From the NCBI GenBank assembly GCA_947445855.1, contig CANFEH010000010.1, positions 1 to 33,376 of the forward strand: a stretch of 33,376 nucleotides of DNA, in the 5' to 3' direction. Position numbers and translations under genes: made by a program. The notes under the pieces were generated by a model. The model saw only the letters and a program-made list of their open reading frames with translations, was not told the origin of the DNA and did no database searches. The DNA is from Zetaproteobacteria bacterium (lineage in GTDB: Bacteria; Bdellovibrionota_B; Oligoflexia; Oligoflexales; Bog-1112). The stretch's first letter is position 1; every line of letters begins with the position of its first letter. This document shows, one piece after another, positions 4,031 to 23,440 of the stretch.

Positions 4031-4112
4031 AAAATCCAGCCCAAAATTCCTCCATTCTTTATTTGTGGTACTCTTTTTTTAGAGTTTTCTAACAATTTAG
4101 ATGGAGGTTTTT

Positions 4113-6125
4113 GTGATTTTTAAAAAAATCATTCTTTTGCTCATGTCTTTAGGCCTTTCTCACTCTCTTCAAGCTGAGCGAAGAGTGTCCCATGAAGGTT
4201 ATATCGAAATTCTTGTCTTTGATGATTTCGAAAAAAACAAACACAAAACAAAATATTTTCTACATTCTAAAAAAAATAATTTAAGAAAACCAAAAGACAA
4301 ACCTATTGAATTAGAGTTTAGTCAACTTCCCGGTCATCTAAAATTAGGACAAAAAATAAAAGTTAACTGCATTGAAAACGAAGATAATCTCGGAAGTAAA
4401 AATAAATTTTGTAAACTTAAAAATAAAGAAATCTTAGACATAGAGTCTTCTGCTACAGAAACTAAAGGAGCTTTAAAAACCCTCTGGATGGTGGTAGATG
4501 TTCAAGATGCGTCTGTTCCTCTTACTATAGATCAAGCCAAAACAAAAATGGATATGACTCATGACTGGTTTTATACAGCAAGTTTTGGACAACTTGGTGT
4601 CAATAAAGATCTAGATGCTAATGGAGAGTATGATATTTTTAGAGTTACTCTGCCCAACTATAGTAAGGCTTCGAATGGTTGTGATTACACCCTTCTACGC
4701 TATGAAGCCTTGACAGCTTTATATAACCAAGGTGTAAATCTTGATCTCTACAAGCATGATGTGCTTCTTATGCCTAATCTTGGCTGTGACTTTAGTGGAC
4801 TTGCTCATGTTGGTTGCGACAGCTATTGCGCAGCATGGATCCAGTCAGTAAATTGGGATCTTGTGTATCCTCACGAACTTGGACATAACATAGGCATGCA
4901 TCATGCTGCTACAGACCCTGAAAACGATGATGTGATTAACAGCGAATATGGAGACAAAAGTTGCCTTATGGGGAACACTCTCACCTCTGGTTATTTCAAT
5001 GCTCCTCATACAGCTGAGATGAAGTGGGCAAGTGAAGCTGATTCACGTATTAAGTTTGTAGATAATCCAGTGGGGACTTATTCTTTAGCACCTATGAGTG
5101 GTATTGAAGGTCAAACTCTAATGTACCGGTTTACCACAGATAAAAGATATTTTTTATCTTATCGTCGTCAAGGAGACTTTGACAAAGTCCCAAAGGGTCA
5201 TGCAAAAGGGATCACTCTTCATTCTTATATACCAGGAGGAAAGACTTACTACATTAAGACACTTGCACCTGGTCAAGAACTGATTTTTGAAACATTCCAA
5301 ATAAAATCACTTCTTGCAAATTCTGAAAAAGCAGAATTTAAAGTGAGCTTATGCAACCTAAAACCAGAGATCACAAAAGAAAAAAATTTCTACTCTGTCG
5401 ACACAGCTGGGACAGTTAACCTTAAGCTTACTGTCAAGAATACTCAAACTCCAGGTTGCGAACCAACTCAATATAATTTAAGCGCTATAAATCAAGAGCT
5501 AGCTTATAACCTGTCTCACGAAACCATTACTCTTGCCCCAGGTGAATCACAAGAAATCACAATTAATTTTCATACAACTGAATCTTCAAAAGAGTATTCT
5601 CTAGGATTACAAGTAAGCCCTAACCAAATGACATCTTTAATTTATAAACAAACAGTCGAAGTGTTAGCGTCAAGAGGAGCTCTTGATTTTCCACCACAAA
5701 TAAATCGTAAGTCTTACTCTGGATCATGGACCAAACTCCCAAACTTTCTAACCTTGACACCTACAGAATCAAAACTTGTCACAGACATATCGATAGGAGA
5801 ATATGGCACAAAAGATAGTTTTGCTCTTACTTTTGATGGCTATATCTATTTAACCGAAGGAATTTATACATTTAGTGTAGATTCAGATGATGGAAGCCGC
5901 TTTTATATAGCTAAAAATTTACTTCTTGATAGAGACGGGCTTGACCGTAGCACTGAAGCAACCAAAGGTTCTTTCCAAGTTGATGAAAAAGGATTTTATC
6001 CCATTCGTCTAGAATATTTTGAAAAAACTGGGACTGAATTTTTTGACTTACTCCTAAGTAAAGATGGTGGACTTTTTGAACCTATCCCATCAAATCTTCT
6101 TTTTCACTTTGAGCCCCAAAGTTAA
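4113..6125 (+). CDS. Secreted M11-like metzincin metalloprotease with PA14 domain
   Basis: Start: the GTG at 4113 has a perfect GGAGG (4103-4107) five bases upstream; the ATG at 4101 overlaps that ribosome site and is unlikely. The product (670 residues) has a signal peptide ending near LQA. The protease domain carries HELGHNIGMHH (about residues 254-264), the metzincin zinc motif HExxHxxGxxH, and a Met-turn SCLMG about 25 residues later; the surroundings (EYGD, GYFNAPH) resemble gametolysin (M11) proteases. A beta-sandwich domain with CARDB/NEW3-like character follows (about 400-520), then a PA14 domain (about 525-665, with TFSVDSDDGSRFYI) likely to bind glycans. It probably degrades extracellular or prey proteins. 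Its stop overlaps the convergent ispA stop by 4 bases. Confidence 0.75.
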   Translation: MIFKKIILLLMSLGLSHSLQAERRVSHEGYIEILVFDDFEKNKHKTKYFLHSKKNNLRKPKDKPIELEFSQLPGHLKLGQKIKVNCIENEDNLGSKNKFCKLKNKEILDIESSATETKGALKTLWMVVDVQDASVPLTIDQAKTKMDMTHDWFYTASFGQLGVNKDLDANGEYDIFRVTLPNYSKASNGCDYTLLRYEALTALYNQGVNLDLYKHDVLLMPNLGCDFSGLAHVGCDSYCAAWIQSVNWDLVYPHELGHNIGMHHAATDPENDDVINSEYGDKSCLMGNTLTSGYFNAPHTAEMKWASEADSRIKFVDNPVGTYSLAPMSGIEGQTLMYRFTTDKRYFLSYRRQGDFDKVPKGHAKGITLHSYIPGGKTYYIKTLAPGQELIFETFQIKSLLANSEKAEFKVSLCNLKPEITKEKNFYSVDTAGTVNLKLTVKNTQTPGCEPTQYNLSAINQELAYNLSHETITLAPGESQEITINFHTTESSKEYSLGLQVSPNQMTSLIYKQTVEVLASRGALDFPPQINRKSYSGSWTKLPNFLTLTPTESKLVTDISIGEYGTKDSFALTFDGYIYLTEGIYTFSVDSDDGSRFYIAKNLLLDRDGLDRSTEATKGSFQVDEKGFYPIRLEYFEKTGTEFFDLLLSKDGGLFEPIPSNLLFHFEPQS

Positions 6126-6991
6126 AACTTCCGATCAAGAAGAGAACTAAAGAAAGAAGATAGAGGGTGAGAATGCACAAGAGGTAAACTAGAAAAAACA
6201 CTAAGAGCTTCAGCAGTTAGATCTCTCGCTTCTTTCTCACAAGTTCTTTTGTCATAAATTTTTAAATAGGTCAGCTTGTCTTGCTCCTTGTCCTTCCCTA
6301 AGCTTTTTCCAGTTTTGTCAGATTCATCAAGCAGATCATCTGTAATCTGAAAGCTTTGACCTACAAGCTCTCCAAGTTTTTTGCAAGAGTCTAGAAAACT
6401 TTGATCTGAAATTCCTGCAGCAATCGAGCCAAGAGCACAAGCACACCCCAAAAGGGCTCCTGTCTTTTTCAGATGAATATGATCAAGATCCTCTTTTGTA
6501 TAATCATTTCTAGATGTCCAGTAGAGATCTAAAGATTGACCTAAAAGCATGCCTTTTGAACCAGAGGCTAGAGAAAGCTCTCCCACCATTTGTTCTTTTT
6601 GAAGAGAAGACAGATTTTCACTCTTTGTCAAAAGAAAAAAGGCATCAGTTAAAAGAGAATTACCAACAAGCAAAGCGGTCTGTTCATCATAAACAACATG
6701 GACTGTTTTGCGACCCCGTCTTAAAGAATCATTATCAAGAAGAGGCATATCATCGTGAACAAGACTATAGGTGTGAATCATTTCAAGAGCAATTGCTGCT
6801 TCAATGGCTTGTTCTTTTTTTCCACCAAGAGATTCGCACATCATGAGAACAAGAAGAGGTCTCACTCTTTTTCCTTGTCCACAAAGAGCATAAAAAATAG
6901 CTTCTGATAACCTAGAGTTTTTAGGATATTCTTTTTCTGTAAACTCTCTCAACTTAGATTCAAAGTACTGTCTTAAATTTTCTAGTTCCAC
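6122..6991 (-). CDS. ispA: Short-chain polyprenyl diphosphate synthase (farnesyl diphosphate synthase)
   Basis: Condenses IPP with allylic diphosphates to give farnesyl (possibly geranylgeranyl) diphosphate for quinones, heme O and undecaprenyl lipids. The first aspartate-rich motif is DDMPLLD (residues 80-86), with the two-residue insertion of bacterial type II FPP synthases, followed by RRG; the second is DDLLD (218-222). The 289-residue length is normal for IspA. Start: GTG with GGAAGAG upstream, inside the end of mvaD. It begins three bases after the mvaD stop and is the last gene of the isoprenoid operon. Product chain length cannot be fixed from sequence alone. Confidence 0.9.
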   Translation of the reverse strand: MELENLRQYFESKLREFTEKEYPKNSRLSEAIFYALCGQGKRVRPLLVLMMCESLGGKKEQAIEAAIALEMIHTYSLVHDDMPLLDNDSLRRGRKTVHVVYDEQTALLVGNSLLTDAFFLLTKSENLSSLQKEQMVGELSLASGSKGMLLGQSLDLYWTSRNDYTKEDLDHIHLKKTGALLGCACALGSIAAGISDQSFLDSCKKLGELVGQSFQITDDLLDESDKTGKSLGKDKEQDKLTYLKIYDKRTCEKEARDLTAEALSVFSSLPLVHSHPLSSFFSSLLDRKF

Positions 6992-6994
6992 AAG

Positions 6995-8011
6995 CTACTC
7001 TTCCGTTACAAAAAGTTTAGGCCCATCCCCTACTGCATCTAATAGAAAATGAGTCTTTGGAAAATCTCTTCTAAAATAAAAAAGAAACTCTTCTCTTTTA
7101 GAAAATTCACAAATCACATGAACATTAGCTCCTGCATCAATTGTAAAATAAGCTTCTAGATGAGTTTCTTGTCTAAGATTTCTAAGCCACGAAAGAAACT
7201 CTAAAGTGTTTTCTTTTAAATAGGAAAAAGGTTCCGCAGCTGTCATTAGAATAAAGTGTATCTCAAGAGCTTCTAATTCTAAAAGAGCCCCTAAAGATTT
7301 CATGTCTTTTTTTTCAAGAGCTTGTAAAAACAACTTTTCTCTTTCACAAAGACCAGATAAACGGACAGAGAAAAGAGGACTTGTGGGAACTCTCTTGTGA
7401 GCTTCTCGCGAGCTCAGATCTTTTTCTTCTTTTGACAAAATCACAATGGTGTCTGCTAGATCCCAATGAGACTTCGGCAAAAAACATGCGACTCTTTGTC
7501 CTTCTGGAGAAGAGCCTTTCTTCCAAACAACATAACCACCAAAAAGACTTCGACCAGCACTCCCAGATCCAAGACGAGCAAGCTGTGCTAGAGTTTCTCT
7601 TGAAAAACCTTTTTCCTCTAGCTCATGAAAAGAAGAAGATTCTGTCCAAGCCGCAATAGCTACTAAAGTTAAAGCAGCAAATCCACTAGCACTACTAGCC
7701 ACTCCTGAAGCTGTCGGAAAATTATTGTGTGTTGAAACTTCAAGAAAAGAGGGGAACTGATACTTCTTTTTTAAAAACTCAAGATGTTTTATGACTTTCA
7801 AAGAAAAAGAATCTTCTTGCTCATTTTCTCCTTCTTTTTTAAAAGAAAAATTTTTAAGACTATTTTGCACGCAAGCTGTTGTAAAAGTTTGACATTCATT
7901 CAAAGTCATGGACAAAGAATTATTAGAAGGCCATTGAAGCTTTTCATCTTGTTTTCCCCAATATTTAAGAAAAGCAATATTACTGGGAGCAGTTACTTTA
8001 TAAATTTTCAA
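6995..8011 (-). CDS. mvaD: Diphosphomevalonate decarboxylase
   Basis: Catalyses ATP-dependent decarboxylation of mevalonate diphosphate to IPP. A GHMP-fold enzyme: N-terminal TAPSNIAFLKYWGK with the YWGK signature, the ATP-binding loop TASGVASSASGFAAL (about residues 100-114), and GSGSAGRSLFGGYVVW. Start: the TTG at 8011 has AGGGGAG eight bases upstream and leaves 338 residues beginning just before the first strand, the usual family length. A longer frame from 8080 would overlap the kinase gene by 64 bases and add residues unlike the family. It sits five bases after the kinase stop and three before ispA. Confidence 0.9.
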   Translation of the reverse strand: MKIYKVTAPSNIAFLKYWGKQDEKLQWPSNNSLSMTLNECQTFTTACVQNSLKNFSFKKEGENEQEDSFSLKVIKHLEFLKKKYQFPSFLEVSTHNNFPTASGVASSASGFAALTLVAIAAWTESSSFHELEEKGFSRETLAQLARLGSGSAGRSLFGGYVVWKKGSSPEGQRVACFLPKSHWDLADTIVILSKEEKDLSSREAHKRVPTSPLFSVRLSGLCEREKLFLQALEKKDMKSLGALLELEALEIHFILMTAAEPFSYLKENTLEFLSWLRNLRQETHLEAYFTIDAGANVHVICEFSKREEFLFYFRRDFPKTHFLLDAVGDGPKLFVTEE

Positions 8012-8016
8012 AAAAT

Positions 8017-9066
8017 CTACTCCCCTATTTCTTGCAAGGAGACACCATACTGAATCCCTCTTTGATCTAAATTCCAACAATTTTCTTCATACCAACCAAG
8101 AGAGAGTAAAACTTTCTTTGCTTCACAAAGATTTTCTTCTTGACCAAAAAAAAGAAGGGCATCCTCTCCACCTGACCCTGTGGTTTTAAAAGTCCAAGTC
8201 TTATCAAACCCATCTACAACTTTCAGAGCTTCTTCCAAAGAACTAGGAAAAAAAGGACTCTTTCTCATAAGACTTCTATGTTGAGAGATAAGACTTATTA
8301 ACTCTTTTTCTAATATTTCTTTTTTTGATTCAAAAAAATCACTAAAAGACAAACTTAACTTTTGAGAAAGCTCAAAAAATTTTTCTTTTAATTGATTTTG
8401 AGAAAGCCAAGCATCTGTTTTATTCATAACTTCTTTTGTAACCGCTCCAGAACCTCCTATAAAAATATGAAGATACTTTTTTAAGCGTTGACTACAGAAA
8501 TCTAGTTTAGACCATTTCTCAGGCCAAAAAGAACCCTCAGGTTTATAAAGAAGCACTCCTCCTTCTTTTTGTGTGATAACGTCATAGCCAGAAGCTTTTT
8601 TTTGATATTTTTTTTGATCCTGAAAAGCTTTTTCTGCAAGACCCCAAGCGCGAGAAGAAGGAATTATTAATTCTTCTTTATTTAAAACTTTTTCAAATAG
8701 ATGCAAAGCGTACTGAACACCTAAACGCAAAGCAGAAGAACTCCCAAAACCAGAACTTACACAAAAATCACTCGTAATAAAAAAATCAAAATGTGGTAGT
8801 TTTTTTTCTTTGATAACAGAGTAAAGGCTAGACAGAAGAATATCTTCTGAATCTTGCAATTCTTCGACTCTTTCAAAAAAATAAGGCCTGTCCCACAGAA
8901 GAGAAGTCACACTCGAACAATCCTTAAAAGATCTCTCGATTCTAATTGTAAGATATTTACTTAAAGCGAGAGATAAAGAAGAAAATCCAGACATGACTGC
9001 ATACTCACCTGACAACATAATCTTGGCAGGTACTCTTACATGAATGACACAATTTTTATCAGGCAC
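8017..9066 (-). CDS. GHMP-family kinase of the mevalonate pathway, probably phosphomevalonate kinase
   Basis: A 349-residue GHMP kinase: motif 1 VPAKIMLSGEYAVMSG (residues 12-27), motif 2 SSGFGSSSALRLG (about 105-116) and C-terminal motif 3 KTTGSGGEDALLFF. GEYAV in motif 1 is usual for phosphomevalonate kinases, whereas mevalonate kinases usually have GEHAV, so the first is preferred; ASGYDVITQ is also PMK-like. Start: GTG at 9066, overlapping the fni TGA by 8 bases, with GGGGAT upstream. Lying between fni and mvaD, it clearly belongs to the pathway. The partner kinase is not in the window. Confidence 0.75.
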   Translation of the reverse strand: MPDKNCVIHVRVPAKIMLSGEYAVMSGFSSLSLALSKYLTIRIERSFKDCSSVTSLLWDRPYFFERVEELQDSEDILLSSLYSVIKEKKLPHFDFFITSDFCVSSGFGSSSALRLGVQYALHLFEKVLNKEELIIPSSRAWGLAEKAFQDQKKYQKKASGYDVITQKEGGVLLYKPEGSFWPEKWSKLDFCSQRLKKYLHIFIGGSGAVTKEVMNKTDAWLSQNQLKEKFFELSQKLSLSFSDFFESKKEILEKELISLISQHRSLMRKSPFFPSSLEEALKVVDGFDKTWTFKTTGSGGEDALLFFGQEENLCEAKKVLLSLGWYEENCWNLDQRGIQYGVSLQEIGE

Positions 9067-10414
9067 GTCCTATCCCCAAACGTTCAAGATAACTGTTAAA
9101 CTCTTTTTCTAAAGGTTCCCCAACTGTCAATTTCGTGGTCAAATCTTTGAGCTCGGAACATCCAGAAGCCAATAAAGTAATTTTAAGTTGATGCGAAAAA
9201 AGCTCAAGCTCTCTTATTACATCTTCAGAAGATTTAACAGCAGCTTTAAAAAGAGGTAGCCCCAAACCACACATAGAAGCTCCGAGAGCACAAGCTTTAG
9301 CAACAGTTTGTCCATCACGAACCCCCCCTGTGGCTGTAACTTCAAGTTCTTTACAAACATTTTTGACAGCAGCTAAGGTATAAGCTGTCGGAGCACCCCA
9401 GTTTCTAAAACTTCTTCCTAGGCGCCCATCTTCACTGGAAAGTCGGTAGGACTCAACTTGGCTCCAAGAAGTGCCCCCCTTGCCTCCAACATCAAGCACT
9501 CTTACACCTGCTCCTTCTAATTTTTTAGCAACATCAGAGCTCACACCAGAACCAACCTCTTTTACAATGAGAGGAGTCTCAAGATGCGAAGAAAGAGATT
9601 CAATCAATTTATAAAAACCTTTGAACTCTCTGTTACCTTCTTTTTGAACACACTCTTGAAGAACATTTAAATGAATAGCAAAAGCATCAGCCCTAACCAT
9701 GTCAATGGCACGTCTGCAGTAGTCGAGTGGATTTTTTTCTTTTAGTAAGTCTGAAAAACCAATGTTTCCAAAAAGAAAAAGATCTGGAAATTTTTCTTTG
9801 AGCACAAAAATTTTAGCATACTCAGGATGCTCAAGAGCAAGCCTCTGTGACCCAAGACCCATGGGAATCCGAAATTGAGAAGCTCCGTATGCTAAATTTT
9901 CGTTAATTCTTTGACCTTCAGAAACACCCCCTGTCATTCCTGTTATGAAGAATGGATATGCAAACCGTTTTCCAAGAAGAATCGTTTCTGTATTAATATC
10001 ACTTTCACTCAGCTCAGGGATTGCATCTGGTAAAAAACTGAGCCTTTCAAAACCAGTGAAACGAGAAGAAGACTCTACATCTTCTGTATTGCAAATATCA
10101 ATATGCTCGTTCTTTCTTAGTTGAATCAAAAGTTTTGCTATTTGTTCTCGAAAACGAGACGAATCAAAGCTAAACTCTAAGTAATTATTTTCAGCTTCTT
10201 TTAAAGAACCTTCAAAAGAAAAATCCTTTGCACCATCTCCTGATAGAATATGAAGAATACCCGCTCCAGATGACTTTTCTGAAAATTTTCTACTTTTATT
10301 TATATAAAAACAATCTTCTGATAAAGCCACAAGACGCACTTCACCTAAATCACTATGTTCACAGAGAAGCGGCCTGTACATAAAAATTTTATTACTTTGA
10401 TTTTTGTTGATCAA
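9059..10414 (-). CDS. fni: Type 2 isopentenyl-diphosphate isomerase with N-terminal extension
   Basis: FMN-dependent IPP:DMAPP isomerase. The core starts at about residue 98 with LRKNEHIDIC and contains the family blocks GFERLSFLPDAIPE, FFITGMTGG, MGLGSQR, KEVGSGVS, DVGGKGGTSW and ATGGVRDG. Normal family members have about 340-360 residues; this one has 451 because of about 97 extra residues in front. That segment looks globular and beta-rich, with no signal peptide or membrane segment, and I do not recognise it. Start: TTG at 10414 with GAGGT four bases upstream; an ATG 11 codons later has no ribosome site and would still keep the extension. First gene of the isoprenoid operon. Confidence 0.88.
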   Translation of the reverse strand: MINKNQSNKIFMYRPLLCEHSDLGEVRLVALSEDCFYINKSRKFSEKSSGAGILHILSGDGAKDFSFEGSLKEAENNYLEFSFDSSRFREQIAKLLIQLRKNEHIDICNTEDVESSSRFTGFERLSFLPDAIPELSESDINTETILLGKRFAYPFFITGMTGGVSEGQRINENLAYGASQFRIPMGLGSQRLALEHPEYAKIFVLKEKFPDLFLFGNIGFSDLLKEKNPLDYCRRAIDMVRADAFAIHLNVLQECVQKEGNREFKGFYKLIESLSSHLETPLIVKEVGSGVSSDVAKKLEGAGVRVLDVGGKGGTSWSQVESYRLSSEDGRLGRSFRNWGAPTAYTLAAVKNVCKELEVTATGGVRDGQTVAKACALGASMCGLGLPLFKAAVKSSEDVIRELELFSHQLKITLLASGCSELKDLTTKLTVGEPLEKEFNSYLERLGIGRA

Positions 10415-22207: not shown

Positions 22208-23440
22208 TTATTTCTTATTTTTCGAGCAACTAGGAGAAAGAGCACAAAAAGCTTTTTCTACTCTTTTGTCTTTTTTATTCAAAATAAAAAGCTCTTCTCT
22301 CTCTTTTAATTCCCCATATGAAACTCTTGTTCCAAGTTCAAAAAAAGGAAAATTTATTCCTTTTGGCATCATGAGATCCAAACAAGAAGTGGTGTTTTTT
22401 GTCAAACGAGAACAATATTTCCGCGTTGGATCATCTTCACAACTACCCTTGTAGGGATTAGCAAAATAGCCTTTAGCTCCTCTTTTTTCGTATCTATGAG
22501 TTAATACAGAACCAGAAGCTAAAATTTTAGGCCAAACTAAGTCTCGTAAAAAAAGCTCATCATCCCCATAAAGAAGACGGTACGGATAATATTCCATCTG
22601 TTTTAGAATATCTTTAAACCCTTCTCCTTTCGTATAAACCCCTCCCCACCAACTAGCAGTAAGCGGTCCAACACAAATAGGCACAAGATGCATACGATGA
22701 AACCTTAAACCACTAGCTATCCATTCTCCCACAGAAAAAAGCTCAGCAGCAGTTAAAATCCAATCTGCATCTCTTAAAACGAAACGAATTTTTTCTCCCT
22801 CAAGGAGGGGTTCATCAAGAATTAAAAATCTCCAGAAACTAGCATCACGAACAGTTTTCTCTCTCGCGTTATCTACATAAACAACTTCGACTCCGCGACT
22901 GAGAAGCTTTGTGACATAGTCACTAGAGAGTTCTCCTTTGAGAGGGCCCATTTTTTCTAAACGACTTGGATGACGCTTAGGACTATAAACACGAACTGTA
23001 AAACTCTCATATCCCCAATTTTTTTCTTCTATCCCATTTTTTTCTTTTACAAAAGTAAAGCTATCTAGATAATTCATGAGCCCATCTAAATACTCAGGCT
23101 TATCTCCAAACAAAGAAAAAGCAATGACTCGAGCTTCATCTTTTACTTTCCAGTATTTTTTCTTTGTCGATATAGGCACGTCTGATTCAATAAGTTCACC
23201 GTTTTCATCTTGAAAAGAGTATTTCCAAGCATCTATACGAGGACACTCAGGCTGACAGTCTGAACGATTGCGATTCATTTTAATTAAGGTGTGGTTGTAC
23301 GCTTCTGACATTCTCTTAGGCCCAAAAAGCTTTACAATAGGTACCCACTTATTATAGCTGCGATCAAAAGCATCATCGTGTTGACAAGAAGAAAAAAGAA
23401 AAAGAAAAAAAAATATCTTATTTTTCATACTTAAAAACAA
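22208..23440 (-). CDS. Exported lipoprotein with a glycosyltransferase-like core
   Basis: A 410-residue protein with a signal sequence ending FSSC (Cys19). The body resembles a nucleotide-sugar glycosyltransferase-type fold: ARVIAFSLFGDKPEYLDGL (about 103-121), FVLRDADW with a DxD-like DAD (224-226), VGEWIASGLRFHRM, WWGG and YGDDELFLRDLVWP (291-304). These blocks occur in this order in cytoplasmic glycosyltransferase-like proteins. A lipid-anchored periplasmic version is unexpected, since sugar nucleotides are absent there. Start: TTG at 23440 with AAGGGAG seven bases upstream; an ATG at 23428 is the alternative. It follows hbd by 40 bases and converges on the ABC-F gene with only four bases between stops. 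Activity unproven. Confidence 0.55.
   Translation of the reverse strand: MFLSMKNKIFFFLFLFSSCQHDDAFDRSYNKWVPIVKLFGPKRMSEAYNHTLIKMNRNRSDCQPECPRIDAWKYSFQDENGELIESDVPISTKKKYWKVKDEARVIAFSLFGDKPEYLDGLMNYLDSFTFVKEKNGIEEKNWGYESFTVRVYSPKRHPSRLEKMGPLKGELSSDYVTKLLSRGVEVVYVDNAREKTVRDASFWRFLILDEPLLEGEKIRFVLRDADWILTAAELFSVGEWIASGLRFHRMHLVPICVGPLTASWWGGVYTKGEGFKDILKQMEYYPYRLLYGDDELFLRDLVWPKILASGSVLTHRYEKRGAKGYFANPYKGSCEDDPTRKYCSRLTKNTTSCLDLMMPKGINFPFFELGTRVSYGELKEREELFILNKKDKRVEKAFCALSPSCSKNKK

Follow-up and report, generated by a model that had tools for sequence, protein, structure and literature searches.

The gene at positions 22208 to 23440 of the window, by which we mean the whole stretch of 33,376 nucleotides that was analysed, encodes a protein that is, at somewhat better than even likelihood, an exported lipoprotein anchored in the outer membrane, with a metal-dependent GT-A domain that adds a sugar onto a glycan of the cell envelope. 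Its family is an exported form of the known GT-A fold class and is without a characterised member. The preliminary description of this DNA had claimed that a glycosyltransferase-like domain with cytoplasmic relatives carries a lipoprotein signal, and this is what was found, as a signal-like N-terminal segment is present in 11 of 11 exported proteins (the window protein and 10 relatives) and the models point to a GT-A fold.

22208..23440, minus strand: whole gene, putative exported GT-A-type glycosyltransferase-like lipoprotein (open reading frame, relatives and AAGGGAG before TTG)

The gene and its surroundings

The open reading frame gives a protein of 410 amino acids from the TTG at 23440 and one of 406 amino acids from the in-frame ATG at 23428. 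The TTG is the likelier start because AAGGGAG lies about 7 nt 5' of it, and the signal segment is retained from either start. All four motif blocks noted earlier, SLFGDKPEYLDG, RDAD, GEWIASGLRFHRM and YGDDELFLRDLVWP, were found in the protein. Only 4 bases separate the 3' end of the gene from that of a convergent ABC-F-like gene, and a same-strand 3-hydroxyacyl-CoA-dehydrogenase-like gene stops 40 bases before its 5' end; both neighbours were named by eye. Three promoter-like sites were counted, which is not above the mean of 3.3 expected by chance, and three terminator-like sites against a mean of 1.0.

Elsewhere in the window, and named by eye, there are a mevalonate-pathway cluster at 6122-10414 (polyprenyl synthase, decarboxylase, kinase and type 2 isopentenyl-diphosphate isomerase), which is not the usual bacterial isoprenoid route; a metalloprotease-like secreted protein at 4101-6125 with the motif HELGHNIGMHH and a PA14-like C-terminal region; and a sulfite-oxidase-like protein at 1456-2694 with a lipoprotein-type signal LVSC, adjoined by a small cytochrome-like CxxCH protein at 1127-1459.

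The signal segment and the predicted location

23384..23440, minus strand: signal segment with basic n-region, hydrophobic core and lipobox FSSC (sequence, hydropathy and a Cys column in 9/11 exported proteins)

The N-terminus of the window protein is M(FLSM)KNKIFFFLFLFSSCQ, and when read from the ATG it consists of MKNK, a run of Phe, Leu and Ile and then FSSC (LFLFSSC), in which the cysteine, with numbering from the ATG, is Cys15. When the remaining chain was shuffled 2000 times, 15 of the shuffles had a hydropathy peak as high as that of the N-terminus of this protein. In all eight exported proteins tested the peaks were 2.47-3.12 and 11-47 of 2000 shuffles were as high; in nine other proteins they were 0.41-1.5, with 448-1468 of 2000 shuffles as high, and none of the nine was signal-like. 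The signal segments of L062-L064 were taken from reading the sequence and lie outside this test of eight. Translation starting after the signal had been named as a possible refutation, and it was not borne out since the signal segment is kept throughout the exported subgroup; such a start was rejected because the relatives retain both the signal and the stretch after it and because of the AAGGGAG before the TTG.

The lipobox cysteine stands in a single alignment column in nine of the 11 exported proteins, and the other two, L006 and L009, have the signal segment without this cysteine. Compared to the canonical [LVI][ASTVI][GAS]C, FSSC matches at -1 and -2 and has Phe rather than L/V/I at -3, and for this reason lipidation of the window protein at the cysteine is likely but not certain. 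By reading, Asp was found at +2 in none of the nine cysteine-bearing exported proteins, and by the E. coli rule, under which lipoproteins without Asp after the cysteine go to the outer membrane, this points to the outer membrane. LspA, LolA and LpxC, which represent the lipoprotein machinery and an outer membrane, were found in the window genome, and two further window proteins have a signal ending in a similar cysteine form, LVSC and VSAC. The protein would thus be exported by Sec, lipidated at the cysteine and sorted by Lol to the periplasmic or the outer face of the outer membrane.

The fold

The model of the window protein has a mean pLDDT of 80.9 and a pTM of 0.84. Its Foldseek matches were weak (best E 2.9e-3, none at or below 0.001) and were mostly GT-A enzymes and nucleotidyltransferases, and in a second structural comparison the highest Z was 9.4 and 37 of the 1000 chains had a Z of 8 or more. 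The model of L012, a short relative, has a mean pLDDT of 88.7 and matched GT-A enzymes clearly: Foldseek gave 165 matches at E <= 0.001, and in the second comparison Z was 8 or more for 961 of the 998 chains. L018 was in neither structure job. Where named, the top rows for L012 are GT-A transferases, including SpsA, TarP and TarS, which we take to be such enzymes; 3ckq is titled just a mycobacterial protein. The predicted fold of the window protein is therefore GT-A, with a clear match in L012 and a weaker one in the window protein itself, and the possibility raised earlier that the fold is unrelated was not borne out, being ruled out by the L012 matches (best E 3.8e-7 and Z of 12.2-13.6 in the best 50 rows).

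The window protein had no match above the cut-off in Pfam, NCBIfam or PHROGs, 15 relatives together with the window protein had none above the cut-off to any Pfam or NCBIfam glycosyltransferase family, and a sequence profile search of the PDB gave nothing usable, its few weak rows, phosphoribosyltransferases among them, having an E of at least 0.03.

The active-site residues

In excerpts of PMC7185993 the GT-A core is defined by the DxD, xED, G-loop and C-His motifs. The candidates for these in the window protein are as follows.

22763..22771, minus strand: DxD motif Asp220-Ala-Asp222, predicted metal/donor site (Asp identical in 23/23; end of model strand 213-219)
22559..22564, minus strand: xED-like Asp289-Asp290, candidate catalytic base (Asp290 in 23/23; start of model helix 289-305)
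22496..22498, minus strand: C-terminal His311, candidate third metal ligand, C-His (23/23; model strand 308-312)

The residues D220, D222, D290, H311, R200, F201, W236, H244 and P361 are invariant across all 23 sequences, and with nine such positions the conservation of the motifs exceeds chance. Asp290 is at the start of its helix and His311 is in the next strand, as is expected of xED and C-His, this mapping being drawn from motif order and secondary structure and not from superposed coordinates. The column of Gly262 has Gly in 21 of 23 sequences and would be the G-loop by its position. The window protein is probably an active, metal-dependent transferase. In such an enzyme the DxD pair and the C-His would bind the metal as well as the phosphate moiety of the activated sugar donor, and the acceptor would be activated by Asp290, as the fold and the conserved motifs suggest.

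Relatives and tree

Ten exported relatives were found, of which seven are long like the window protein and three are short. The long form is about 395-418 amino acids (the window protein, L006, L007, L008, L009, L062, L063 and L064) and the short form is about 270 amino acids (L011, L012 and L018). Matches were found in 5 of 56 related genomes, the window's own among the 56, and in 6 of 58 by an alignment-based search; among named bacterial contigs, 78 candidate stretches yielded 7 loci, and in the phylum of genome G059, 6 of 195 genomes matched. The exported family spans two phylum-level groups. Relatives without a signal came from viral contigs (8 loci from 74 candidate stretches), from phage records (6 of 50,697 records matched, of which three proteins were used) and, in the case of L065, from one bacterial genome. 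Among the papers listed on exported, periplasmic or extracellular glycosyltransferases, those on lipoproteins and predators included, none describing the family was seen, and the main text of PMC11656739, on predator protein families, is without the words glycosyltransferase and lipoprotein.

The count of 23 sequences excludes L010, whose reading frame is broken near the N-terminus and which was kept in some alignments and in the hydropathy test. L002-L005 duplicate L006, L009, L012 and L011, and each gene was counted once, as were the fetched copies L013-L017, L030-L035, L058 and L059. In the tree the long clade has a support of 100/100 and the short clade 100/98, and in the best tree both forms fall to the same side of a branch whose support is 52/90. 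A single origin of export for the two forms is neither shown nor rejected by this tree of sequences.

Several of the records are of interest in themselves. In the Akkermansiaceae relative L010 (4403-5293) the N-terminal part lies in another frame (L061), which indicates a frameshift or an assembly error. L019 (CAKLQH020000005.1), titled Acinetobacter phage MD-2021a, has recN, yqgE and rlmB around the match and looks like bacterial chromosome and not phage. The title of L007 (JABDBI010000005.1), Euryarchaeota archaeon, is probably wrong because its genes look bacterial and because its genome, G058, surfaces in the phylum search around G059. The viral-contig relative L029 (2998-4236) has a second, C-terminal domain that is glycosyltransferase-like by eye and is without a Pfam or NCBIfam match.

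What changed in the long clade

22664..22699, minus strand: residues 244-255 (HRMHLVPICVGP), which replace Arg-Asp...His and hold Cys252 (column-by-column alignment)
22382..22441, minus strand: Cys330, Cys339 and Cys349 of the long clade, probable disulfides with Cys252 (8/8 long rows)

Between the DxD and the WG motif, all 15 rows of short and cytoplasmic proteins have Arg-Asp...His. It is present in none of the eight long rows, all of which have (His or Gly)-(Leu, Val or Ile)...Cys at this site. The DxD is followed by Ser-Arg in the three short rows and in 11 of 12 cytoplasmic rows (Ser-Ile in L019) and by Trp in the long rows. Cys252, Cys330, Cys339 and Cys349 are present in 8 of 8 long rows and a further pair, Cys58 and Cys62, in 6 of 8; among the cytoplasmic rows no cysteine column is above 4 of 12. 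We infer from these columns that the substrate pocket is altered in the long clade and that the conserved cysteines probably form disulfides. The pocket would have been rebuilt and the disulfides would brace a protein that works outside the cytoplasm, roles which this conservation suggests.

Genomic context

In three genomes of two genera, which belong to the same family as the window organism, a run of four genes ends with the short form. A barrel-like exported protein comes first, followed by a PIG-L-type deacetylase whose signal is lipoprotein-like, a second barrel-like exported protein and the short transferase.

L012:3470-6417, L011:2541-5382 and L037:2734-5663: the four-gene run (exported proteins)

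Pfam PIG-L matched two of the deacetylases at 6.7e-8 and 9.1e-9 and the third narrowly missed the cut-off when its genome was searched, and the four scanned operon proteins called barrel-like by eye had no Pfam match. The run looks like an extracytoplasmic glycan-processing cassette. No PIG-L partner was matched in the window genome, which is 84% complete, and no glycan gene was found adjoining the window gene. By product names assigned by eye, no neighbours are common to the window, L006-L009 and L062-L064; a phosphoglycerate-mutase-like gene is common to L062 and L063 and a histone-like gene to L062-L064. The phage relative L020 sits within a cluster of annotated glycosyltransferases, and L065 carries PF13524, a glycosyltransferase domain, as a fusion.

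Proposed function and the donor question

The activity that we favour, that the window protein adds a sugar onto a cell-envelope glycan, raises the question of the donor. Bacterial nucleotide sugars are cytoplasmic and GT-A enzymes are thought to depend on them, and nucleotide sugars are not to be expected in the periplasm. As the usual fuel should be absent outside the membrane, the protein probably makes or modifies the sugar chains of a cell surface by a means that is undescribed. An intact-looking GT-A enzyme with export signals would mean an unknown route of activated sugars to the envelope, or another donor, or the modification of other cells. The window genome has a DPM1-like polyprenyl-phosphate-sugar synthase, whose best PDB match is dolichol monophosphate mannose synthase (E 1.6e-31) and whose link to the window gene is a guess, and PMT_2, the one GT-C family that was searched for, had no match in this 84% complete genome. 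That the GT-A domain of the long clade uses a polyprenyl-phosphate or other non-nucleotide donor outside the inner membrane, so that a soluble lipoprotein does the job of a GT-C enzyme, is an unlikely reading, akin to the lipid-linked donor raised in the preliminary description; what was counted for it is that pocket residues are altered in 8 of 8 long members while the catalytic residues are unchanged, together with the presence of the DPM1-like synthase and the absence of a PMT_2 match.

The donor problem would be solved without donor export by the cell itself if the exported enzyme acted on foreign glycans, of prey or host for example, with nucleotide sugars leaking from the dying cell. The active site is intact, the signal permits surface exposure and the long clade includes small genomes of 1.3-1.8 Mb (G058, G059, G233, G234 and G238), and host- or prey-dependent bacteria often have small genomes. 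However, long members are also present in genomes of 2.6 Mb (G003) and 3.1 Mb (G001), and no secretion or predation gene adjoins the window gene. For these metagenome bacteria we regard this explanation, which resembles the host or prey option of the preliminary description, as rather unlikely. A protein that works where donors should be absent and whose long clade has lost Arg-Asp...His might instead have kept the fold and lost the transfer, as a glycan-binding or scaffold pseudo-enzyme, an option that the preliminary description had put forward. It does not sit well with the residues, as DxD, Asp290 and His311 are unchanged in 8 of 8 long rows and every metal and base position is retained in the whole set of 23; a dead enzyme is expected to lose some of these, as COSMC did according to the excerpts of PMC7185993, and we consider it improbable.

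We give equally little credence to the proposal that the hydrophobic N-terminus is a mere membrane anchor of a cytoplasmic catalytic domain that uses ordinary nucleotide sugars. The cytoplasmic location of the usual donor, the two proteins without a lipobox cysteine and the non-canonical FSSC are in its favour, but the positive residues (MKNK) before the hydrophobic stretch favour a topology with the C-terminus outside, the cysteine is in the same column in 9 of 11 proteins, the long clade is rich in conserved cysteines and the partners in the sister operon are likewise exported. It is very improbable that the GT-A scaffold serves another chemistry such as nucleotidyl or phospho-sugar transfer: nucleotidyltransferases of the RmlA and GlmU types are among the matches of the window model, but the better model, that of L012, has glycosyltransferases throughout its top rows, the C-His and xED-like positions suit glycosyltransferases and the fusion in L065 is to another glycosyltransferase domain. 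For the explanation that we prefer, that of an exported envelope glycosyltransferase, we counted the GT-A matches, the invariant active-site residues, the signals and lipobox column together with LspA, LolA and LpxC, the support for the long and short clades, the cysteines of the long rows, the sister operon with its PIG-L-type lipoprotein and the links of L065 and L020 to glycosyltransferases. Against it we counted the expected absence of nucleotide sugars from the periplasm, the modest structural match of the window protein itself, the Phe at -3 of the lipobox and the two exported proteins without the cysteine, the lack of a glycan gene beside the window gene and of a PIG-L match in its genome, and the lack of a known substrate for any member or close relative.

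Comparison with known systems

The closest solved matches of the short relative are the GT-A glycosyltransferases PcManGT (6yv7), GpgS (5jqx), glycogenin (3u2w) and BcsA (9fp0). The fold is alike and the DxD, the xED-like Asp and the C-His are in the expected order, but the identity is 10-16% and the proteins described here are exported and probably lipidated. Compared to GT-A enzymes generally, the window family is without a member of known activity and lies outside Pfam, NCBIfam and PHROGs. The cytoplasmic relatives L019-L029 and L065, which are from phage or virus records and one bacterial genome, share the catalytic residues in every one of the 12 aligned rows, and there is a structural match to viral proteins in BFVD, for example A0A481Z110 of Mimivirus LCMiAC01 at E 7.7e-15. 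These relatives differ in having no signal segment, in keeping Arg-Asp...His and in having DxDSR (11 of 12; DxDSI in L019), whereas the long clade has DxDW. The short exported subfamily L011, L012 and L018, from sister genera, is alike in the signal with its lipobox cysteine, in the catalytic residues and in belonging to the taxonomic family f1, and differs in its length, in keeping Arg-Asp...His and in its operon, which also encodes a PIG-L-type lipoprotein and proteins that look barrel-like. Finally, injected toxins and the lipid-donor GT-C enzymes are examples of bacterial glycosyltransferases that are active away from the cytoplasm of their producer, and the window protein would be like them in this; the injected toxins have another mode of delivery and use host donors, and the GT-C enzymes differ in fold and have many helices in the membrane.
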